Shown here in pieces: positions 11,934 through 22,440 of a stretch of 34,187 bases of DNA. A program made the position numbers and the translations under genes. The stretch lies in assembly GCF_000341265.1 (NCBI RefSeq), contig NZ_ANAE01000109.1, forward strand, positions 1 through 34,187, in the 5' to 3' direction. The DNA is from Nocardiopsis prasina DSM 43845 (GTDB taxonomy: Bacteria; Actinomycetota; Actinomycetes; Streptosporangiales; Streptosporangiaceae). The notes under the pieces are model-generated. The model was not told where the DNA came from. It saw only the letters and a list, made by a program, of their open reading frames with translations, and searched no databases. Positions within the stretch are counted from its first letter, which is position 1, and every line of letters starts with the position of its first letter.

Positions 11934-12689
11934 CTACTCCTTGACTCGGTGCACCTTGTGCGCGGCCGCCTGGGCGCGCGGACGGACCACGAGCAGGTCG
12001 ACGTTGACGTGCGGCGGCCGGGTGATCGCCCACACGATGGTGTCGGCCACGTCCTCGGCGCTCAGCGGGTCCGGAACCCCGGCGTACACGGCCTCGGCAC
12101 GCTCGGCGTCCCCGCGCAGGCGGTTGAGGGAGAACTCCTCGGTCTTGACCATGCCGGGGGCCACCTCCAGGACGCGGACCGGTTCCCCGCACAGTTCCAG
12201 GCGCAGGGTGGCGGCCAGGGTGTGGGCTCCGTGCTTGGCGGCCACGTAACCGCCGCCGCCCTCGTAGACGCCGTGTCCGGCCACTGAGGAGACGACCAGG
12301 ACGGTGCCGTCCCCGCTGGCGATGAGCTTGGGCAGCAGGGCCTGGGTCATGTTGAGCACGCCCAGGACGTTGACCTCGTACATGCGCCGCCAGTCGGCGG
12401 GGTCGCCGTTGGCGACGGTCTCGGTGCCGATCGCCCCGCCCGCGTTGTTGACCAGCACGTCACAGGAGCCCAGCTCCTCGGCGAAGGCGTCGACGTCCGC
12501 GCGGTCGGTGACGTCGAGGACCCGGGCGCGGGCCGAGTGACCGCTGCCGGTGATCTCCTCGGCGAGCGCCTCGATCCGGTCGGCGCGGCGGGCCACCAGG
12601 ACCACCTCGTAGCCCTCGGCGGCGAGCCCGCGCGCGGTGGCGGCACCGATCCCGCTGCTGGCTCCGGTGACGACCGCGGTCGCTGTCAT
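11934..12689 (-). CDS. Short-chain dehydrogenase/reductase (classical SDR)
   Basis: A 251-residue NAD(P)-dependent oxidoreductase. The cofactor motif is [13 protein letters not shown] at residues 6-18, with the basic ARRADR afterwards favouring NADP(H). NNAG, the catalytic VVSSVAG serine and the YVAAK tyrosine-lysine pair are all present, followed by [13 protein letters not shown], as in SDR family oxidoreductases related to YdfG. Length is normal. It may share an operon with the acyl-CoA synthetase. A truncated TetR-type regulator remnant lies divergently upstream, suggesting the gene was once controlled by it. The substrate is unknown. Confidence 0.9.
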
Positions 12690-12759
12690 GTGGTTCCTCC
12701 CAAGGTCAGGTGTCGCGCCGAGCGTATCCGGGGACGGGGGTACTCATCGCCCTCTGGTG

Positions 12760-13302
12760 ATGGACGCGGTCTACCACCTACAAACCGCTGAACATAACGA
12801 CATTAGTGAGCTGCGCAGAGACCTGCTGGTGCTGCCGCACCAGACCCCGTCCCCTCTCCGGCCCGGCCCGGCCGGGGAGCCCCTGCGCTACCTGCTCGGG
12901 GGTGCGCGACCTTACACGAAGCACGCCGTGGAGATTCGCTCCCATTCCCCGGGAATGGGGCGGCGGATGATGGCGGAGATCATCGGCAGGACCGTGGCGC
13001 GCGGGGTGATCGATCCCGAGGCTGCGGTTAGCACCCAGCTGGAGGTGTGCCAGGCACTACTACGCAACCACTTTCGATTCTGGCTAGAACCCATCCCGGA
13101 CAACTTGGTGGTAGAGGTCGTGGACACAGTCCTGTCCTACTGCTCCACTCGAGCCCGAACCTCGGGGTTGTGCCCGGGAGCTCGCGCTTTCCACCTGCGA
13201 AAATGCCCGATCAACCACCCTGGCTTCAGGTTGAGGGCACGGCTCAAAGGACCGAATATCAACTGCCCTTGCTGTGCTGCTTCTCAGTCAGATCGTCTTT
13301 GA
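12760..13302 (+). pseudogene. TetR-family regulator remnant lacking its DNA-binding domain
   Basis: From about 12760 to 13140 the frame reads like the C-terminal ligand-binding half of a TetR/AcrR regulator: NDISELRRDLLVLPHQ, GEPLRYLLGGARP, MGRRMMAEIIGRTVARGVID, LEVCQALLRNHFRFWLEPIP and LVVEVVDTVL match the helical pattern of the TetR_C families. No helix-turn-helix precedes it: only about 70 bases separate it from the divergent SDR start. After VDTVL the sequence turns into an unrelated tail (SYCSTRARTSGLCPGARAFH ...) with no family match. It is therefore a relic with the front half deleted, sitting at the left edge of the lower-G+C defence block. Confidence 0.6.
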
Positions 13303-13459
13303 TGACCGAGTTGAGCAGCGGAAGCGCGCCACCGAATGCCGCTCCTGCTGTGAGAATTGCAACCGGCCATGACTCTGCGGCCAAGAGCGTAAGCGCGCCA
13401 GCGACAACACTGACCCAGCAGCAGCCGAAGAAGATGGTCGCTGCACGCTGGTCAACCAT
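13259..13459 (-). CDS. Small two-helix membrane protein
   Basis: A 66-residue protein with two hydrophobic segments, about residues 8-27 (TIFFGCCWVSVVAGALTLLA) and 31-51 (WPVAILTAGAAFGGALPLLN), and a charged tail. A GGAGG site seven bases upstream of the ATG strongly supports translation. It starts 31 bases after the HNH endonuclease stop on the same strand, so the two probably form an operon. I recognise no family. Small membrane partners occur in several anti-phage systems as pore formers or anchors, but nothing here proves such a role. Confidence 0.7.
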   Translation of the reverse strand: MVDQRAATIFFGCCWVSVVAGALTLLAAESWPVAILTAGAAFGGALPLLNSVIKDDLTEKQHSKGS

Positions 13460-13490
13460 GCTGATGCCTCCAAAGCCCGGATTTCAAGGA

Positions 13491-14288
13491 TCAGTCCTCT
13501 TCCTCTGAACCGAGCATCCGAGCAAGCTCGCGCCGGAGGCCCTCCCGCTCGACCCCGGGAAGCTGCCGGTAGTGCGCCCAAACCTGTTCAGCTTTGGACA
13601 TGGGACGCCGGTCCAGCGCCATCCAGGAGAGGAGGTTCGTCTTCTCGCGCTTCGACAGCTCCCGAACCTGGTCACGCACATGGTCCGCAGTGAACTGCAC
13701 AGGGGTGAGTTGCTTCGCTGTCTCGTTACACCGAGCACACTCGGTCACGAGATTCTCCGCGGCTGCGCTCGCGCCATAAGCGTGTGCGTTGATGTGACCG
13801 AGAGTCAGCCGGGCGCTGCTACCAGGCTCTTCCGGATACTCTTCACCGGATGAGATACCGCACCGGACGCACCGGTGGTGGTCACGGTCCATGACCTCAC
13901 GTCGAAGCCTCCCGCTGACTGTTCTCAACCCGGTCGAACGTTTCCCCGGTTCCCACACATGAGCGCCGATGGTCTCCAGGAAAAGCTCGTCAGGACTAAG
14001 CGAAGCCATGTCACGGTATGTCTTGATGATCCATCCGGCTGGTCGAAGGTCGCGCATACGCCGGTCGATCTGCTCGACCCCAGGGATAGCTTCCCTCATG
14101 TCCTGTTTGCGGAAACGCTGACCTTCTCCCACCTGCTCATACAGCCAAAGGGCGACACGGATGCGCCCTCCAAGCGACCGGTCGCTCCAGTCAGGACGTC
14201 CTTCTTCTGTGGGCACGCTCGTTCGGGTCCGTTTCTGTCCGGCATGGCCTTTGCCTGCTAATGCGGGCTTACTTGAGGGTGAGAGCAT
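13491..14288 (-). CDS. HNH endonuclease
   Basis: A 265-residue protein. The nuclease core lies at about residues 125-195: zinc-binding Cys140/Cys143 (CVRC) and Cys184/Cys187 (CARC), with His165 (LTLGHINAH), Asn179 (AENL) and Asn188 completing an H-N-N pattern. The N-terminal 110 residues (GGRIRVALWLYEQVGEGQRF, RKQDMREAIPGVEQIDRRMR, AGWIIKTYRD) look like a winged-helix DNA-reading domain. Such HNH proteins are often restriction endonucleases coded beside a C5-cytosine methyltransferase, and one starts 263 bases away on the opposite strand. It could be the restriction partner of that methylase, or a second nuclease alongside the NaeI-like enzyme. The small membrane protein gene follows in the same operon. 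Confidence 0.85.
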   Translation of the reverse strand: MLSPSSKPALAGKGHAGQKRTRTSVPTEEGRPDWSDRSLGGRIRVALWLYEQVGEGQRFRKQDMREAIPGVEQIDRRMRDLRPAGWIIKTYRDMASLSPDELFLETIGAHVWEPGKRSTGLRTVSGRLRREVMDRDHHRCVRCGISSGEEYPEEPGSSARLTLGHINAHAYGASAAAENLVTECARCNETAKQLTPVQFTADHVRDQVRELSKREKTNLLSWMALDRRPMSKAEQVWAHYRQLPGVEREGLRRELARMLGSEEED

Positions 14289-14388
14289 CGTAACCTGTCG
14301 GCACCTTCACGGCAAGATCCGGCAAGCCATCGGCGCCCATCGGCATACTAGTAGACATCGATCCGGTCTGCGGGACTGGTCGGACCCC

Positions 14389-14456
14389 GCCGGTAGAATC
14401 GGCCGGTCCGGGGATCCGCCAAGGCAGTTATCCACAAGTCCGCGTTGCCGGTAGAA
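14389..14456. promoter_or_regulatory. Direct repeats between the HNH and methylase genes
   Basis: GCCGGTAGAA occurs at 14389-14398 and 14447-14456, 58 bases apart, inside the 263-base divergent region. A CGGACC/GGTCCG inverted repeat (14381-14386, 14405-14410) overlaps the first copy. The core GCCGGT differs by one base from GCCGGC, the site NaeI cuts. Some C5-methylases repress their own promoters, and a near-cognate site could serve that purpose; this is speculative. Confidence 0.35.
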
Positions 14457-14551
14457 CCGCTGCTCAGACCTTGGGACGATCAGCGGGGGACCAATCGTCG
14501 GCTTTCCGCCCAGCACGTGAGGTGTGAGGGCGTGGGCAGAGAGGAAACTGC

Positions 14552-15670
14552 ATGTCCGGTGAAGGACGCACGTACACGTCCGTTGAGATCTGCGCAGGCG
14601 CAGGCGGACAAGCCCTCGGCTTGCACCGTGCGGGCTTCGAGCACCGTGCACTGATTGAAATCGACCCCCATGCAGTCCAGACTCTGCAGCACAACACCCG
14701 TAGGCAGGGGTGGCGAAACTGCGCGATCCTCCAGTGGGACCTCACAGACTTCGAGATGGCAGACCTCAAGAAGGAACTGGGAGACGACCGCCTCGACTTG
14801 CTGGCCGGCGGTGTCCCCTGCCCTCCCTTCTCCCTTGCTGGAAAACAGTTGGGCGAAGATGACGAACGCGACCTCTTCCCTGTCATGCTCGACATGGTTA
14901 AGCAGCTTGAGCCACGCGCAGTGATGATCGAGAACGTTCGCGGGCTGCTCGAACCCGAGCACAAGTTCCGTGATTACCGGCTCAAGATTCGGGACTCGTT
15001 GGAGAGCCTGGGGTACCGGGTTCTGGGATGGGATGTCCTAGAAGCTCGCGACTACGGCGTCCCACAGCTTCGGCCGAGGGCCATCCTGGTGGCGATGCGC
15101 GAGCCAGAGGCCTCACATTTCCTTCCGCCCCGTGCAAGCGGAGAGGTTGTTACTGTGGCCAAAGCCCTAGACGAAACCATGCGCATGCGATTCGGAACAT
15201 CTGCCAGGGGTCTGAAGCACTACGGAAAGTGGCGGCAGGCTGCCTTGAAGAAGGGCACTGTGGCTCCGACACTGGTCGGCGGATCGAAGAAGCACGGAGG
15301 TGCGGACCTGGGACCGACCCGCGCCAAGCGGGCCTGGGCTGAACTCGGGGTAGACGGGCACGGGGTAGCCGACCCGCACGGCCAGACCAAGGACAAGCAG
15401 CGAGATTTGTACGGTGAACGCGGTCCCAAGCTGACTGTCGAGCAGGCTGCGATCATCCAGGGTTTCCCCACCGACTGGGAGTTCCAGGGTCGTAAGACGG
15501 CTGCTTACCGGCAGGTTGGCAACGCTTTTCCTCCGCCGGTAGCACAGGCCGTGGGCGAAGCCATCATCCGCGCTCTCAAGGCATCGGACGTCGGCGTCGA
15601 GCGGCCGAAGGAACAGGTTGAAGGCCTACTCGAATTCCTGACCCCGCACCAGCTCACACTTACGGACTGA
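14552..15670 (+). CDS. DNA (cytosine-5)-methyltransferase
   Basis: A 372-residue enzyme that methylates cytosine C5 in a specific DNA site using S-adenosylmethionine. Motif I is VEICAGAGGQALGLHRAGF, motif IV LLAGGVPCPPFSLAGKQ with catalytic Cys90, motif VI MIENVRG, motif VIII PQLRPRAILVAM and motif X YRQVGNAFPPPVAQAVGEAI. The target-recognition region is about residues 190-290 (LKHYGKWRQAALKKGTVAPT, GGADLGPTRAKRAWAELGV). A GAGAGGA site precedes the ATG. It converges with the vsr-NaeI gene pair, only 14 bases separating the stops, and diverges from the HNH gene. With a NaeI-like enzyme beside it, GCCGGC is the likely target, by inference only. Confidence 0.93.
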   Translation: MSGEGRTYTSVEICAGAGGQALGLHRAGFEHRALIEIDPHAVQTLQHNTRRQGWRNCAILQWDLTDFEMADLKKELGDDRLDLLAGGVPCPPFSLAGKQLGEDDERDLFPVMLDMVKQLEPRAVMIENVRGLLEPEHKFRDYRLKIRDSLESLGYRVLGWDVLEARDYGVPQLRPRAILVAMREPEASHFLPPRASGEVVTVAKALDETMRMRFGTSARGLKHYGKWRQAALKKGTVAPTLVGGSKKHGGADLGPTRAKRAWAELGVDGHGVADPHGQTKDKQRDLYGERGPKLTVEQAAIIQGFPTDWEFQGRKTAAYRQVGNAFPPPVAQAVGEAIIRALKASDVGVERPKEQVEGLLEFLTPHQLTLTD

Positions 15671-15684
15671 GGGCCAACCGAGTA

Positions 15685-15945
15685 TCAGTTTCCCGACCTC
15701 AGCGCGTGTTCCCATCGATCTCTAATTCCCAGGAGTCCGGGTTCGTCTTTTCCGAGCAATTGTTTATCCCAAACCCTACTGCGTAGTCCTACCCCATGTA
15801 CCAGGCAGCGCATCGCGACCTCAGGTTCTGCGTCGTGACTACGGTTTCCCTGCATACTGCACCGGTTCGCGGCCGAGGATGCCCACGAACCCTCTGGAGC
15901 GCACCATTGAGCGTTCCCATCCAGCTTCTCCGTTGACTCGTTCAC
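15685..15945 (-). pseudogene. vsr: vsr mismatch endonuclease gene with internal deletion
   Basis: This 86-residue frame starts at a GTG overlapping the TGA of the NaeI-like gene (GTGTGA), so it was translationally coupled. Residues 20-58 (SWASSAANRCSMQGNRSHDA then EPEVAMRCLVHGVGLRSRV) are an unmistakable Vsr N-terminus. The last residues, DRWEHALRSGN, resemble the far C-terminal WECALRG of E. coli Vsr. The roughly 60 residues between them are gone: the catalytic Asp of the PGxPDxVF motif is scrambled (LLGKDEPGLLG) and the GCFWH segment is absent. Family members are about 135-155 residues. No room for the missing part exists before the methylase stop 14 bases away. Intact Vsr nicks T:G mismatches left when 5-methylcytosine deaminates; this version should be inactive. 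Confidence 0.75.
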
Positions 15946-16886
15946 ACTTTCGGCAGTTGGGGTGCTGGTTCGACTGGATCGTCCTCAGAAGCCCGCACCC
16001 ACCAGCGGCCATCGATAAACGCTCGGGGTCTCCCCTCGTGGGAGCCCTCATCAGCACGAACCACTCGAGCGGAAACAAATTCGCCTGGACCAGGTACGGG
16101 CAAACCGAGCTGGGCGGCGATGGTGCGATGCCCCTTGTACTGCCCGAGGATGATGATCCCTTCCGGACGGAGGTTAGACCGGGACCCGCCGTTTCCACGG
16201 ACCCGCTTCATGTAATCGTCCTGCTGGGCAACCGTGGCCACCACCGCCCTCCGGATAGGGATTCCCTGGGCGCGTCGGAACAATTCATCGAGCTTCTTCG
16301 AGCCAGATTTGAGCGCGAAGATCGCCTCCACATCCCCTGGCGGCAGATGCAGCAGGGCGTTTACCGGTAGCTGAGCGTCTGAGAAGAGCCACCGCACAGA
16401 TGCTTTCCCCTGCTTGTTCAGAGTGCGTTTGGCATCACGGTTACTTCCGCTGTTCAGCGAGCCCAAGTCCGCGCGGACCAACCCGGCCCACCAGCGCGAA
16501 TCAACATCACTAGCCCATAGGACGAGGCAGAGTTTTCCAACCGCCTCCGGAGGGATCATCCACGAGCCACGGTTCTGGGAGTACTTGCAGTCGACCTCTA
16601 TACCACAGATACGGTAGTCCAGCTCCTCACCTCCAGAAAACTTGAACTCCCGCTGGAGGTTGATCTCGACCAAGGTTCCGAAATGCGTCTTTTCGGTCTT
16701 GTGAAGCTGGTCCCACCGGTAACGCCCTGTGTTCTGACCGTCAAGCAGCATGTCGAAGGTGCCGCGCAGAGCTGAGGCGAACCGGAGACCATGCCGATCG
16801 AGATCTAGCAAGTGATGGAGGACCTGTTCGAGCTCAGAGTCTGCACTGGCAACGCCCGGCTGGTCGGGGGTATCAAAGAGGTGCAC
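15942..16886 (-). CDS. NaeI-family type II restriction endonuclease
   Basis: A 314-residue protein close to NaeI (317 residues) throughout. The catalytic set of NaeI (Glu70, Asp86, Asp95, Lys97) is found with a constant offset of four as Glu74 (GTLVEINLQREF), Asp90 (ELDY), Asp99 and Lys101 (GIEVDCKYS). The Topo domain is also conserved (IRRAVVATVAQQDDYMKRVR, RPEGIIILGQYKG, GPGEFVSARVVRADEG). NaeI cuts GCCGGC and needs a second site as an allosteric effector (type IIE). Leu47 corresponds to NaeI Leu43, whose change to lysine turns NaeI into a topoisomerase. The start is a GTG; the stop overlaps vsr. The gene is 39 bases downstream of the 276-residue gene and converges with the methylase. Confidence 0.92.
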   Translation of the reverse strand: MHLFDTPDQPGVASADSELEQVLHHLLDLDRHGLRFASALRGTFDMLLDGQNTGRYRWDQLHKTEKTHFGTLVEINLQREFKFSGGEELDYRICGIEVDCKYSQNRGSWMIPPEAVGKLCLVLWASDVDSRWWAGLVRADLGSLNSGSNRDAKRTLNKQGKASVRWLFSDAQLPVNALLHLPPGDVEAIFALKSGSKKLDELFRRAQGIPIRRAVVATVAQQDDYMKRVRGNGGSRSNLRPEGIIILGQYKGHRTIAAQLGLPVPGPGEFVSARVVRADEGSHEGRPRAFIDGRWWVRASEDDPVEPAPQLPKV

Positions 16887-16925
16887 GTCACCAAACTAAC
16901 GGTGTCCCGAACCAAGGAACACCAG

Positions 16926-17756
16926 TTATGTACTCAACTGTCTCAACTGCTCGGCACACGCTCCGACAGCTCCTTCCCCTGGCAGATGCACTCTCCCCCA
17001 CCGCCGCTGGGTAGGGATCTTCAGCTCTACGAAGCGAAGGTCGGGGCGGTCGCGACCGATCAACTTCTCTGCCTGTGGCTTACGCCCTGAGCCGCCGTCC
17101 CTGAACGTTCCGTTCTTGATGTACAGAGACACCGAGATGTTCCCCAACCACGTGTCCGTCCGGTACAGCGCATCGGCCAGCGGGTGGAAGCGAACATCCA
17201 GTCCCAGTTCGCGGAAGCGAGAAATCACGTAGAGCTCGCGGATGAACGAGTAATAGAACAATCCGACCCTCCATCGCATGGCGTTCTTTGCTTGCTCCTC
17301 GGTGCAGCCATCACTAACGGCATCTCTAATCTTTTCCCAGGCCGGATCATGAAGCATATGACGACAGCGATCAAGCGCACACCAATCACGAAACTCTTGG
17401 AATGAGAAAACATCACCCCTCTCCTCAAGGAAGAAGTGGAACACGTGCGAAAAAGCGAAATCCGGAAACCAATCTCGAATCGACTTCACTCCATATCCCT
17501 GACTTGGTCGAATATTCCCGATGGCATGCTCTGAGTTTAGTGCAGAAATATCAGATGATCGGATCCCATAAACTACTTCCGTGCGGTGGCCCAAGACTCT
17601 TTCCGCCACATATGGCCTATTCATTACCCAATCATCCAATAACCTCTTCCCGGACCGAGAGCAAGCGAATTTTCGAAGAACATCATCAGCATCAGTAACA
17701 AGTGTTTGCTTCATCGGCAACCAACCCATCTTCGCCCGAGCGACAAATCTTGCCAT
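16926..17756 (-). CDS. Unrecognised protein in the restriction operon
   Basis: A 276-residue protein I cannot assign; an internal Met (MKQTLVTDADDVLRKFACSR) gives 262 residues and may be the true start, as neither has a convincing ribosome-binding site. Visible parts are a helical aromatic-rich middle (FYYSFIRELYVISRFRELGL), then DALYRTDTWLGNISVSLYIK, RKPQAEKLIG and RPDLRFVELKIPTQRRWGRV. The spacing of acidic residues before FVELKI recalls a PD-(D/E)xK nuclease core, but this is a weak pattern. It is cytoplasmic by appearance, AT-richer than its neighbours, and lies 39 bases upstream of the NaeI-like gene on the same strand, so it probably shares its transcript. It may be a partner, regulator or separate defence effector. 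Confidence 0.65.
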   Translation of the reverse strand: MARFVARAKMGWLPMKQTLVTDADDVLRKFACSRSGKRLLDDWVMNRPYVAERVLGHRTEVVYGIRSSDISALNSEHAIGNIRPSQGYGVKSIRDWFPDFAFSHVFHFFLEERGDVFSFQEFRDWCALDRCRHMLHDPAWEKIRDAVSDGCTEEQAKNAMRWRVGLFYYSFIRELYVISRFRELGLDVRFHPLADALYRTDTWLGNISVSLYIKNGTFRDGGSGRKPQAEKLIGRDRPDLRFVELKIPTQRRWGRVHLPGEGAVGACAEQLRQLST

Positions 17757-17967
17757 ACTACATCAATAAACCCGACCAATCCGCAAACGCGCAGGTAGAG
17801 CAGAGACACCTGCCCCACTGCCCTCCACTGTTCACACCAAGAAGCCCCAGAAGCACGACGGATCGGCGCTCTCAGATCGATTCACCTTGGCTGCGGGACT
17901 CCCAAAGGCAAGCAGATCGCGACAAAAGCGCTCGAACCATCCGACATAACCCGATAAGGTACGCTCC

Positions 17968-19152
17968 ATGCCAGCCAACGGTGAGCGTACTTTCCCCTTC
18001 TCAGTCCTCCCTGAGAGCGACCTGCTTCTAGATGCCGTCTATAAGGGTGGGACAGCCGGAAACACTGGTGACGACCCCATCGCCCGCCTGATCAAAGTAG
18101 GGAACCAAGGCGGCTTCCGAACCATGGGCTCTCCTTGGAAGCAGTCAGTCAAGGTAGCTGTGCTGTACAGCTCCGGACGAGAGCCGGACTGGCCGGACGA
18201 GCTCGATGTCCAGACGGGACGCTTCACCTACTACGGGGACAACCGACGCCCTGGGGACGATCTTCACAACACTCCCAGGGGAGGCAACCTCCTCCTGCGG
18301 AACACCTTCGAGGCAGCCTCAGGAACTGCCAACGACCGAGACAAGATCCCTCCCTTCTTGCTCTTCCAGAAGGCGGGCCAAGGGCGGGACGTGCGGTTTC
18401 GAGGACTCTTGGCGCCCGGTGCTGAGGGCCTGTCCCCGGATGATGAACTAGTCGCGCTGTGGAGAAGCACACGCGGGAAGCGCTTCCAGAACTACCGTGC
18501 AGTCTTCACAGTCCTCGACACTGCTTCAGTCACCAAGGAATGGATCCGAGAGCTATCCACGGGTCTCACAACGGGTCCCCACGCCCCGGTCGAATGGCTG
18601 ACCTGGGTCAAAGGACGTCAATACCAGCCGTTGACAGCACCTGCAACCGTGAATACACGCACCAAAGATGAGCAGGTCCCCGGACCTGAAGGACAGGCCT
18701 TCCTCGCGGAGATCACTGGACACTTCCATGGCCGCTGGCACGACTTCGAGGAGTGTGCCGTGGCTCTGTGGCGGATGCAGGCGCCTGCCACAGGCCAGTG
18801 CGAAGTCACACCACCGCACCGGGATGGCGGGCGTGACGCCATTGGGCAGTACATGCTTGGTCCTGCCGCTGACCCGGTGTCCGTTGAGTTCGCATTGGAG
18901 GCCAAGTGTTACAGCCCTTCTACATCCGTCGGTGTTCGGGATGTAGCACGGCTGATTTCACGACTCCGAAACCGCGAGTTCGGGGTGTTTGTAACCACCT
19001 CCCATTTCCATTCGCAGGCATACAAGGAAATTCGAGACGACCGCCACCCTGTCGTCCTCATATGCGGCAAGGACATCGCTGACCTTCTACAGGCTCGTGG
19101 TTTCAGTTCACCGGAATCAGTGAGACAATGGCTGCGAACGTCATTCCCTTGA
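17968..19152 (+). CDS. AspBHI/MspJI-like restriction endonuclease with Mrr-type catalytic domain
   Basis: A 394-residue protein. Residues 8-210 (FPFSVLPESDLLLDAVYKGG, IKVGNQGGFRTMGSP, GDNRRPGDDLHNTPRGGNLL) match the N-terminal recognition domain of AspBHI. The C-terminal part is an Mrr-type PD-(D/E)xK nuclease with DGGRD at 286-290 and EAK at 311-313 (FALEAKCYSP), followed by a conserved helix (VRDVARLISRLRNREFGVFV). AspBHI and MspJI relatives cut DNA containing 5-methylcytosine in a short sequence context; some homologues may be ordinary type II enzymes. An AAGG eight bases before the ATG at 17968 supports the start. It is divergent from the 276-residue gene across 211 bases without other features. 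Confidence 0.85.
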   Translation: MPANGERTFPFSVLPESDLLLDAVYKGGTAGNTGDDPIARLIKVGNQGGFRTMGSPWKQSVKVAVLYSSGREPDWPDELDVQTGRFTYYGDNRRPGDDLHNTPRGGNLLLRNTFEAASGTANDRDKIPPFLLFQKAGQGRDVRFRGLLAPGAEGLSPDDELVALWRSTRGKRFQNYRAVFTVLDTASVTKEWIRELSTGLTTGPHAPVEWLTWVKGRQYQPLTAPATVNTRTKDEQVPGPEGQAFLAEITGHFHGRWHDFEECAVALWRMQAPATGQCEVTPPHRDGGRDAIGQYMLGPAADPVSVEFALEAKCYSPSTSVGVRDVARLISRLRNREFGVFVTTSHFHSQAYKEIRDDRHPVVLICGKDIADLLQARGFSSPESVRQWLRTSFP

Positions 19153-19212
19153 TTCGGTCCGCGGGATTAGAATGTAGTTCCATCTTTACTCCGGAGACAA
19201 TGACAGCCAAAC

Positions 19213-19491
19213 CTACCGCACAAGGCCGTACTCGGAGTGGCCGGAGTCGCCCTGCTCGTACACCTGTGCGCCAAAGCGCGGGTGAGGCAGGGAGAGGTGG
19301 CCGATCCGATCGTGACCACGCCGCGGAATCCGTGCTCTATCGGACGGAGCGACGGCGAACTTGTCCAGCCAACCCTGACCCAGGAGGCAGCCATAAAGGA
19401 CAAGGTCGTTATCTAGATATCCATTCTTTCTGAGCTGTTTCAGCTTACTTGCGATCGACTCACGAGGAAGGGCTTTGAGATGTCTTTTCAA
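19213..19491 (-). CDS. Doubtful small frame, possible gene remnant
   Basis: A 92-residue leftward frame with a TTG start. The first 45 residues have ordinary amino-acid composition with a Lys/Leu-rich helix, whereas the rest looks like non-coding translation. No family is recognised and no ribosome-binding site is seen. It could be the broken N-terminus of a lost island gene. Confidence 0.2.
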   Translation of the reverse strand: MKRHLKALPRESIASKLKQLRKNGYLDNDLVLYGCLLGQGWLDKFAVAPSDRARIPRRGHDRIGHLSLPHPRFGAQVYEQGDSGHSEYGLVR

Positions 19492-19715
19492 GCCTAGGCA
19501 ACGTTCAATTCCGAAAACCGACCCGCCTCAGCCCTAGAGTCCGATTGGAACAGAAGCGAGCGACTGTGATGATCGACCACGCCGGCGTCACATCCCCGCA
19601 AGAGGCAAGATCAATGCTCGTTTTCGATTCAGAGTAAAGATGATATCGAGTAAATAATCCTCATTTCCATCGGAAATATATACTCAGCTCTCTGCCGGAT
19701 GCATTGAATAGCGAT

Positions 19716-19748
19716 GAGCCCCCTGCAACTGGGATACGCAGGGGGCTC
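19716..19748 (-). terminator. Strong hairpin terminator of the DndB-like gene
   Basis: GAGCCCCCTGC (19716-19726) and GCAGGGGGCTC (19738-19748) make a perfect 11-base stem with an 11-base loop, 18 bases past the stop of the leftward gene at 19767. Rightwards it is followed by an AT-rich GTTAAATATT, so it may also end transcripts coming from the AspBHI-like gene. Confidence 0.75.
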
Positions 19749-19766
19749 CGTTAAATATTATGGAGG

Positions 19767-21050
19767 TCAGACTTCAGCCGGTGCCTTCTTGTGCCAGTCC
19801 GTGATCACCCTGGTCAAGTGCACGACGTTTTGCTGACGCATGATCGGGGCGGAGGCGTTCGGCTCGAAATCCTCGTTCGCAGCCGTGGTACGCCAAATGC
19901 TGGTCTCCGTAACCGGAACAATCATGTGCCTGTCGAGCCGCTTGAAGAACTCTTGGATGTCACCGTCCTCCACTCCCTCCTCCCTCAGGTTGCGGTAAAC
20001 ACCGCCGAGGACGCGGAGCATGCCCACCGATCCCAAAAGCGAGGACTCGCGCAACCTCATGGCCTTAGTGGGTGGCGCCTGCGGCTCGCCCTTCTTCTTC
20101 TCTGAGAGTGCGGGGTCGTAGTTATCCACGTCCTCCTCAGTGATCTCGGCGAGCGCGGCAAACGCGATAGAAACGACGTCCAGGAAACCGCGGACACTCT
20201 CGATGACCTCGTTGTCGGTCAGCGACTCGGCCTTCTTGCTAACTCTGCCACCTGGACCAGCGATGACGGCTCGCGTGATGTCGGCCACGTGCTTGGCACC
20301 CATCAGGTTGCGGTTGCTCAGAGTCATCCGGTCCCGCTCGATGTCGATCTTACCGAGGAAGAGGGGATGACTGACGATGTCGCTAATCGTGCGGTTAGCA
20401 ATCCGGGAAGTGTCGAAGCGGGCACGGACAGCACCGGAAATACCCTTGGCGTTGTCTGCGACATCAACAAACATTTGCTGGCCACTGACGCCGTCTGGCT
20501 CTACATAGATGTCAATGCCGACGAACTCGTCCTTGAGTCGCTGCATTCGACCGACCATGGCCTCACGGTCCCGCTCCAGCTTCGCCTTCTTAGCATCTTT
20601 GGCGCGGTGCATTTCCCTGTCGATGCGGGAAACCTCGTCCGTGATGCGCTTTTTTTCCAGGTGGACCCCAAGGATGCGGTGCTGGCCGTCGATCGTGACC
20701 AGGCGCCCGATACCACCAATGGACCATGGGACGGTGAGATAGCCAACCGACTCGTCTTCGCTAATCGCCTCGAAGCGACAGCCACCGGTGTCACGAATGA
20801 GCAGGGCTGGGGCCACCCAACGAGGGTTATCTGTCAGGTACTGCCCAAAGCCTTTGGCGTGGTTGATATCCACCTTGCGGTTGTCCGGATCTGGTTTGGC
20901 CGGGTCCGGGATCGTGAGGATGACCGAGAGGTCAGCAAGCGGGATGCGCGTCGTGTAGACGGTCCGGCCGCCCTGGCTGGTACGTATCGCCAGGTAGGTG
21001 GACTCCTCACGCACGAGGGAAAGACGCGATGAATCGACGGTGATGCTCAC
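19767..21050 (-). CDS. DGQHR-domain protein (DndB-like)
   Basis: A 427-residue protein carrying the DGQHR motif at residues 121-125 in GRLVTIDGQHRILGVHLEKK, followed by VGIDIYVEPD, GQQMFVDVADNAKGISGAVR and RFDTSRIANRTISDIVSHPLF, as in DndB, the regulator of DNA phosphorothioation operons, and in DGQHR proteins of deazaguanine modification systems. A charged, probably coiled-coil stretch spans about 130-175. No dndACDE or dpd genes are nearby, so this is a solitary copy of unknown role. DGQHR proteins resemble ParB/sulfiredoxin folds and can bind DNA. The GTG start at 21050 has AAGGA eight bases upstream. A strong terminator follows. Confidence 0.85.
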   Translation of the reverse strand: MSITVDSSRLSLVREESTYLAIRTSQGGRTVYTTRIPLADLSVILTIPDPAKPDPDNRKVDINHAKGFGQYLTDNPRWVAPALLIRDTGGCRFEAISEDESVGYLTVPWSIGGIGRLVTIDGQHRILGVHLEKKRITDEVSRIDREMHRAKDAKKAKLERDREAMVGRMQRLKDEFVGIDIYVEPDGVSGQQMFVDVADNAKGISGAVRARFDTSRIANRTISDIVSHPLFLGKIDIERDRMTLSNRNLMGAKHVADITRAVIAGPGGRVSKKAESLTDNEVIESVRGFLDVVSIAFAALAEITEEDVDNYDPALSEKKKGEPQAPPTKAMRLRESSLLGSVGMLRVLGGVYRNLREEGVEDGDIQEFFKRLDRHMIVPVTETSIWRTTAANEDFEPNASAPIMRQQNVVHLTRVITDWHKKAPAEV

Positions 21051-21259
21051 AGATGAGATCCTTTTCGAGCAGTCAAGTTGCTATGCAACCCGGGAGGCAG
21101 GAAGACTGCACGATCTTCTCGCTATTCTCAAAGTTAGCGCGTTAGCCATCGATCAAGCAAGCGAAGCAGAAGACATGCCCGATAATCGGATATGTGAGCA
21201 GAATGTCCTAATCGGCGGACCCCGTGGCGCCGGATGCTGTTTAGAGAAAGGTTTTCTCC

Positions 21260-21290
21260 CTGGTGCTCACCAGACTCCTGCCGGAGTCTG
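21260..21290. repeat. Two adjacent hairpins at the right edge of the island
   Basis: CTGGTG-CT-CACCAG (21260-21273) overlaps by three bases a CAGACTCC-TGCC-GGAGTCTG hairpin (21271-21290). The second has an ideal four-base loop. They could terminate leftover transcription, form alternative RNA structures upstream of the monooxygenase, or be the scar of an integration event. Confidence 0.45.
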
Positions 21291-21356
21291 CGGACTTCAC
21301 CTGGGCGGTGCGGCGGAACGAGGACGCGGCCCGGGCCTGAACCGACCCGTTTGTTA

Positions 21357-21370
21357 ACCTGCGCGCAGGT
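21357..21370. promoter_or_regulatory. Palindromic operator candidate for the monooxygenase
   Basis: ACCTGCGCGCAGGT is a perfect 14-base palindrome 44 bases upstream of the monooxygenase ATG, right after TTGTTA. Its position and symmetry fit a site for a TetR- or MarR-type repressor. No such regulator gene is adjacent. Confidence 0.45.
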
Positions 21371-21414
21371 CACGCGGGAGCGTCCCGCACCGGACCCCAG
21401 CGAAGGCGAGAAGC

Positions 21415-22440
21415 ATGGACCTGCCCGAACTCCTCGGCGCGCGCCGGATCCTCCAGGCCCCGATGGCCGGGGGGACGTCCACCCCGGCCATCGTCCACGC
21501 GGTGGATGGCGCGGGAGGCCTGGGCTTCCTGGCCGCCGGGTACCTGTCCGCGCAGGCGCTGACCGAGCGGATCGAGGAAGTCCGGGGCCTGGGAACCGCC
21601 GTGTTCGGCGTGAACGTCTTTGTCCCCTCCGGTTCCCCGGCCCCCGCTTTCCTGCTCGACGGCTACCGGACGGACCTCGCCGACGAGGCCCGGCGGCTCG
21701 GGGCCGAGGTCGGCCCGGCCACGTACGACGACGACGCCTGGGACGCCAAGATCGATCTGTTGGTGAGCTCCCCCGTTTCCGTCGTGAGCTTCACGTTCGG
21801 CTGCCCGTCGGCGGCAGTGCTGGAACGGCTGCGCGAGGCCGGTTCGGCCACGGTCGTCGCCGTGACCACCGTCGAGGAGGCCCGGACCGCCGTGAACCGG
21901 GGCGCCGACGGGGTGTGTGTCCAGGGCCTGGAGGCGGGAGGGCACCGCGCCGCCTTCGACCCCGCCGTGGCCGACGACCGACCGCTGGCGACCCTCCTGC
22001 CCGAGGTCGTGCGTGCCGTCGACGTGCCGGTGATCGCCGCCGGATCCATCATGACCGGCGAGGACGTCCACGCCGCCCTCGCCGACGGAGCCGACGCCGT
22101 CCAGGCGGGCACCGCCTTCCTCCGGTGCCCGGAGAGCGGCGCGCAGGCAGCGCACAAGGCCGCCCTGGCCGACCCCTCCTACACGGAGACCTCGCTCACC
22201 CGCGCCTTCACCGGTCGCCGCGCGCGCGGTCTCACCAACAGGTTCATGGCCGATCACCCGGCCGCGCCCGCCGCCTACCCCGAGGTGCACCACATGACCA
22301 GGACGCTGCGCGCCGCGGCGGCCCGCGCGGGTGACACCGGGGGCATGGCCCTGTGGGCGGGGACCGGGTTCCGCCAGGCGCGTGAGGTGCCCGCGGCGGA
22401 TCTCGTCGCCGAGCTGCGCGACGCGGCCGGGCCCTTCTGA
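21415..22440 (+). CDS. Nitronate monooxygenase (2-nitropropane dioxygenase family)
   Basis: A 341-residue FMN-dependent TIM-barrel oxidoreductase that oxidises alkyl nitronates, detoxifying nitro compounds. ILQAPMAGGTSTPAIVHAVD and GGLGFLAAGYLS near the N-terminus, GVNVFVP, VCVQGLEAGGHRAAF with His177, the phosphate-binding VIAAGSIMTGEDVHAALADG and AVQAGTAFLRCPESG are family motifs, and length is typical. The ATG has a GAAGGCGAG site upstream. It is a single-gene unit: divergent from the DndB-like gene and convergent with the exporter genes across a large hairpin. Confidence 0.92.
   Translation: MDLPELLGARRILQAPMAGGTSTPAIVHAVDGAGGLGFLAAGYLSAQALTERIEEVRGLGTAVFGVNVFVPSGSPAPAFLLDGYRTDLADEARRLGAEVGPATYDDDAWDAKIDLLVSSPVSVVSFTFGCPSAAVLERLREAGSATVVAVTTVEEARTAVNRGADGVCVQGLEAGGHRAAFDPAVADDRPLATLLPEVVRAVDVPVIAAGSIMTGEDVHAALADGADAVQAGTAFLRCPESGAQAAHKAALADPSYTETSLTRAFTGRRARGLTNRFMADHPAAPAAYPEVHHMTRTLRAAAARAGDTGGMALWAGTGFRQAREVPAADLVAELRDAAGPF

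Follow-up and report, generated by a model that had tools for sequence, protein, structure and literature searches.

The 34,187-nucleotide contig NZ_ANAE01000109.1 of Nocardiopsis prasina DSM 43845 (hereafter the window) contains a restriction-modification (R-M) locus with an orthologue of the restriction endonuclease NaeI, together with a protein of an unnamed family, here called X, that recurs beside such loci in several bacterial lineages. The block carrying these genes (13201-21060) has a G+C content of 59.0%, versus 71.6% in the remaining window, a difference also visible in a sliding G+C profile; G+C at third codon positions (GC3) ranged from 0.58 to 0.75 in the island genes and from 0.92 to 0.94 in the two flanking genes. 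Composition therefore bears out the original prediction, made from the letters of the sequence, of a lower-G+C block, and all of the open reading frames (ORFs) that it named are present at the positions it reported. The features are as follows, from left to right (L and G numbers designate compared loci and genomes):

11934-12689, minus strand: left hotspot flank, short-chain dehydrogenase-like (named by reading, not by family search), matched in 36 of the 40 genus genomes
12637-13302, plus strand: hotspot ORF of 221 amino acids, function unknown, with relatives in L045, L046, L048, L057, L123 and L125
13259-13459, minus strand: 66-amino-acid protein in which reading showed two hydrophobic stretches, followed up by genus search
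13491-14288, minus strand: HNH-type endonuclease-like protein (HNH matches below threshold)
14552-15670, plus strand: C5 cytosine methylase, predicted M component (PF00145, TIGR00675)
15685-15945, minus strand: decayed Vsr mismatch endonuclease gene (PF03852; alignment with intact genes)
15942-16886, minus strand: NaeI orthologue, restriction endonuclease (PF09126; 1ev7)
16926-17756, minus strand: X, with a likely start at 17714 (262 amino acids), characterized by family searches and locus counts
17968-19152, plus strand: AspBHI/LpnPI-like modification-dependent nuclease, divergent from X (PF18062, Mrr_cat; 4oc8, 4rzl, 4f0p; PADLOC mREase_II)
19767-21050, minus strand: solitary DGQHR-domain protein (TIGR03187; PF14072)
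21415-22440, plus strand: right hotspot flank, nitronate-monooxygenase-like (named by reading, not by family search), matched in 37 of the 40 genus genomes

By sequence, the product of 15942-16886 is a clear NaeI orthologue. It matched the NaeI domain PF09126 over positions 2-288 of 288 (7.1e-118; 393.5 bits, cut-off 25) and the NaeI structure 1ev7 (1.2e-93), and E70, D86, D95 and K97, the catalytic residues of NaeI, were all identical in the alignment with 1ev7. The C5 methylase was identified by PF00145 (1.2e-60; 206.1 bits, cut-off 22) and TIGR00675 (150.5 bits, cut-off 100.65). Between these two convergent genes lies the decayed Vsr gene, which is no longer full-length or intact: its match to PF03852 (6.1e-6) reached 26.4 bits versus a cut-off of 27, and alignment with the intact genes of L045, L048 and L057 revealed two internal deletions, with the core deleted and the frame lost. 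The original prediction overlooked this decayed Vsr, so that the block includes a reading frame that is no longer an intact gene. As in the NaeI system (Type IIE, GCCGGC), the NaeI orthologue adjoins a C5 methylase, with Vsr as a common third gene; unlike that system, the window locus also has X together with genes of the HNH and AspBHI-like types, and its Vsr has decayed.

The recognition site of NaeI is GCCGGC. In PMC4081073, this site is given as GCC|CCG, and NgoMIV is described as a Type IIF enzyme that cuts G|CCGGC. Over 46 kb of the genome carrying the window, GCCGGC occurred 9 times, versus 46.3 expected. Avoidance of this site was considered as a signature of the system and dropped, because two genomes without NaeI also gave values of 0.38 and 0.33 (G267 and G478, respectively) and five other NaeI genomes ranged from 0.37 to 0.84. 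In a comparison covering the window, L137 and 10 other genus genomes, 10 of the 11 sampled from the genus showed strong depletion of CTCGAG, which was among the three lowest-ranked palindromes listed for each of these 10.

The gene for X probably begins 14 codons downstream of the ORF start, at 17714, because a protein 83% identical to it (P0001) begins there in the alignment. It ends 39 bases before the start of the NaeI gene, so that X and NaeI probably form a single operon. A single-sequence search with X gave 19 relatives and a profile search at least 154 (7,993 candidates scored). No Pfam domain was present in the 120 relatives listed, and none exceeded its cut-off in the 54 members scanned (best E value 0.011, to unrelated families); one source labels the relative P0088 transglutaminase-like, for which Pfam gave no support. 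When the profile of X was compared with those of Vsr, NaeI, NgoMIV, AspBHI, HNH, methylase and DGQHR proteins, no similarity emerged, and a search of solved structures with the X profile returned nucleolin alone, at an E value of 0.034 or worse, which was taken as chance. As a candidate phage or plasmid gene, X had no match among 50,697 phage and 72,556 plasmid records.

An AlphaFold model of the whole of X gave weak structural matches only, and the C-terminal part was then folded alone. In this predicted model, the C-terminal half of X has a weak fold likeness to Vsr and to the EDxHD (I-Bth0305I) nucleases, which are characterized by the EDxHD motif. Unlike these nucleases, X shows no EDxHD motif to view, and it has no profile similarity to Vsr. 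Within the family, D201 is invariant and E174 nearly so, with no (D/E)xK following and Asn215 in that place; PD-(D/E)XK nucleases with variant active sites exist. The C-terminal half of X may have a PD-(D/E)XK-like nuclease fold, for which support is weak.

To describe the surroundings of X, 42 non-redundant loci with 8-kb limits were compiled, including one with a broken X (L111) and two with a partial X (L055 and L109). An alignment scan of genome contigs gave 35 X loci, of which 6 on G-locus contigs were dropped from the 42; contig loci were found by alignment patterns, and distant X members are under-sampled. An earlier scan of genome contigs with the single X protein gave no match. Across the 42 loci, a C5 methylase was found near X in 38, NaeI in 30, an NgoMIV-type enzyme in 6, either of these two nucleases in 31, Vsr in 32, HNH in 14 and AspBHI in 6. 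NaeI lay within 2 kb of X in 28 loci, and was on the same strand in only 14 of the 30; these 30 include one gene broken in frame (L049) and one 62-bit remnant (L107). The frequency of Vsr near X led us to reject the idea that X replaces Vsr. The linkage of X was kept despite varying gene order and partner nuclease, and was also found in two Betaproteobacteria. In two loci (L052, 13156-18778, and L054, 1476-6971), X has nearby a pair formed by a 221-amino-acid protein and a SACS/helicase protein of roughly 1,560 amino acids.

The methylase of L049 lies about 11 kb from X. Three other X loci (L051, L080 and L102) had none of the counted partner genes locally; elsewhere in each genome there was a methylase sharing 65-75% identity with NaeI-locus methylases, with Vsr, NaeI and HNH beside it in two of the three and an NgoMIV-type gene as well in one. 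C5 methylases are common (10 of the 14 control genomes), so it is the likeness to NaeI-locus methylases that counts. Of the 341 genomes of the host family, 12 had X, 47 had NaeI and 8 had both (Fisher p = 2.4e-5, uncorrected for kinship); in the class sample, X was found in 6 of 394. The four family genomes with X and no NaeI had a methylase, Vsr and NgoMIV beside X (G241), a methylase and Vsr (G410), a methylase, Vsr and HNH next to a truncated X (G315), or a methylase elsewhere in the genome (G437). Among NaeI loci without X (20 fetched of the 39 such genomes), 14 had a methylase, 13 Vsr, 10 HNH, 2 AspBHI and none NgoMIV. The suggestion that the ORF at 16926-17756 might be an undescribed component is thus upheld, its homologues lying mainly within restriction loci, next to C5 methylase, Vsr and NaeI-type genes. 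These observations suggest that X is a real extra part of NaeI-type defence.

The interval that holds the island is a variable integration hotspot between conserved Nocardiopsis genes. Both flanks lay on one contig in 32 of the 40 genus genomes (counted from match lists), and the gap between them measured about 1.3 kb at its shortest (G338) and about 37 kb at its longest (G492). Nine genus genomes had a NaeI match, which was located between the flanks in five (G000, G485, G489, G223 and G471) and outside them in three (G283, G481 and G490); the ninth, G480, had a NaeI fragment only and no left-flank match. In the window (11934-22440) and in G492, G223, G471 and G489, the hotspot holds NaeI islands or DISARM. 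The ORF at 12637-13302, whose C-terminal part overlaps the 66-amino-acid gene in antisense and which had no NCBIfam match, looks like a hotspot gene, because its relatives occupy this hotspot in L125, where BLAST searches using the proteins of the island turned up no restriction gene. The "composite island" of the original prediction is more aptly described as a NaeI-type R-M locus that carries varying add-ons and lies in an integration hotspot.

Among related islands, L045 carries the 66-amino-acid gene, HNH, methylase, Vsr, NaeI, X and AspBHI, and L057 the same set minus X; the set is present in part in L046 and L048, with an added NgoMIV-type enzyme in L048. The AspBHI-like gene of the window has the opposite orientation to its counterparts in L045, L048 and L057. 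An NgoMIV-type enzyme takes the place of NaeI beside X in L052, and lies side by side with a NaeI-type enzyme and X in L048, L084, L088, L099 and L106, whereas profile searches found none in the window. A C5 methylase and Vsr of this kind also adjoin DrmA and DrmB of DISARM, with X in L105 and without it in G492; in contrast, no drm gene was found among the seven proteins checked in the window block. The hotspot of G492 (L123, 6730-19501) holds a methylase 82% identical to that of the window, Vsr and DISARM DrmA/DrmB, and neither NaeI nor X. In L105 (1010-8795), from a Hamadaea metagenome-assembled genome, DrmA, DrmB, Vsr, the C5 methylase and X all run in one direction.

The protein of 13491-14288 may work like an HNH endonuclease, its two HNH matches lying under the curated Pfam cut-offs (20.3 versus 27.5 bits and 19.7 versus 21.4 bits). 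The gene was nevertheless a recurrent neighbour of NaeI, in keeping with its predicted membership of the island: it was found in 49 of the 341 family genomes, of which 19 also had NaeI and 18 had both within 7 kb (counted by hand; by chance, about 7 genomes would have both). The six matches 63-100% identical to the window protein were all no more than 2 kb from NaeI.

The predicted 5-methylcytosine (5mC)-dependent nuclease, at 17968-19152, was assigned to the AspBHI/MspJI family by both of its domains, PF18062 (RE_AspBHI_N; 1e-67, 227.8 bits, cut-off 27) and Mrr_cat (7e-17, 62 bits, cut-off 21), by the AspBHI structure 4oc8 (2.1e-104), with further matches to 4rzl and 4f0p, and by PADLOC mREase_II (2.5e-169). 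As in AspBHI and LpnPI (MspJI family), W69, D71, Y82, Y83, D85 and R87, named in PMC4499157 as residues of the flipped-base pocket, are kept. Unlike AspBHI, the window enzyme does not keep N63, and at positions 41-42 it has the Gly-Asn of LpnPI in place of the Ser-Arg of AspBHI; its specificity may therefore differ from the YS(mC)NS of AspBHI and be directed to another 5mC context. PMC4499157 gives C(mC)DG for LpnPI, alongside YS(mC)NS for AspBHI. As to whether the enzyme is compatible with the methylase of its own locus, these motifs imply that GCCGGC with a methylated third C would be safe under YS(mC)NS and cut under C(mC)DG, whereas a methylated second C would be safe under C(mC)DG.

A solitary DndB-like protein had been proposed at 19767-21050. 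The DGQHR domain (TIGR03187 of NCBIfam, 59.5 bits, cut-off 58.85) and the DndB-domain match (PF14072, 2.5e-25) are present and no DndC match was found in the genome, but the protein fell far short of the DndB equivalog cut-off (20.8 versus 328 bits). This gene is not a conserved part of the island: it was full-length only in its own genome and partial in 2 others of the 40 genus genomes, and related islands (L045, L046, L048 and L057) lack it. Nor is the 66-amino-acid membrane protein, which had been proposed as a second undescribed component. It had no match in Pfam, PADLOC or NCBIfam, and its relatives occurred in 7 of the 40 genus genomes, close and adjoining the HNH gene only in its own genome, G485 and G223. 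The other four matches were distant (43-48%), in genomes without NaeI, and BLAST found no other island gene nearby; linkage to HNH is thus confined to close relatives.

Several roles may be considered for X. It could assist the C5 methylase and Vsr in maintenance or repair, acting at deaminated, mismatched or hemimethylated GCCGGC sites and not on foreign DNA. We judge this unlikely: Vsr accompanied X (32 of 42 loci) only a little more often than it occurred in those NaeI loci that lack X and were fetched (13 of 20), and a mate specific to Vsr should vary with it, whereas in the window Vsr has decayed and X is intact. Among the three X loci that have no methylase nearby, two (L080 and L102) resemble integrative elements by reading, with integrase-like, FtsK-like and excisionase-like ORFs, and their genomes hold a complete NaeI system elsewhere. 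This would fit a control or anti-suicide protein that regulates the NaeI-type nuclease or holds it back, or one that lets a mobile element tolerate NaeI. Such a role seems slightly less probable again, given that G485 and other NaeI genomes manage without X (8 of the 47 have it), that X is also found without NaeI or NgoMIV, and that its conserved residues, as judged from the alignment, appear enzyme-like rather than a mere binding surface.

The modularity of X, which is missing in G485 and reduced to a 26-bit remnant in L063, and the presence of an integration hotspot would also be expected of a defence-island hitchhiker with no functional tie to the methylase. This explanation is very improbable, however, as the partners of X are specific and close (NaeI within 2 kb in two thirds of the loci, 28 of 42), their linkage to it persists from one phylum to another and despite changes of gene order, and none of the 42 loci has X in a genome without a methylase of the NaeI-locus type.

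The explanation that we favour, and to which we give about an even chance, is that of a NaeI-type (GCCGGC) R-M locus in a hotspot, with X as a dedicated accessory, most likely a methylation-gated nuclease. The methylase would shield the GCCGGC sites of the host, the NaeI orthologue would cleave unmethylated sites, and the AspBHI/LpnPI-like enzyme would cleave foreign DNA bearing 5mC in other contexts, presumably as phage defence; Vsr, now decayed in the window, would formerly have repaired deaminated 5mC. X, as a putative PD-(D/E)XK-like nuclease, would likewise be gated by this methylation, and a single methylase would thereby license several unrelated nucleases. More tentatively, and with clearly less confidence, X may found a new nuclease family whose members are gated by methylation. 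NaeI-type loci may, on this view, be stacks in which one C5 methylase licenses several unrelated nucleases (NaeI, NgoMIV-type, HNH-type and X); these could be exchanged, even for DISARM, the methylase/Vsr module remaining constant.

The hotspot is a place to seek further defence genes of Nocardiopsis. NaeI is a textbook enzyme, and yet several bacterial lineages link its locus to a protein of unknown function. Should X prove to be a nuclease against which this methylase protects, R-M loci would serve as platforms carrying several independent blades behind one shield, and escape by inactivating one enzyme would become harder.

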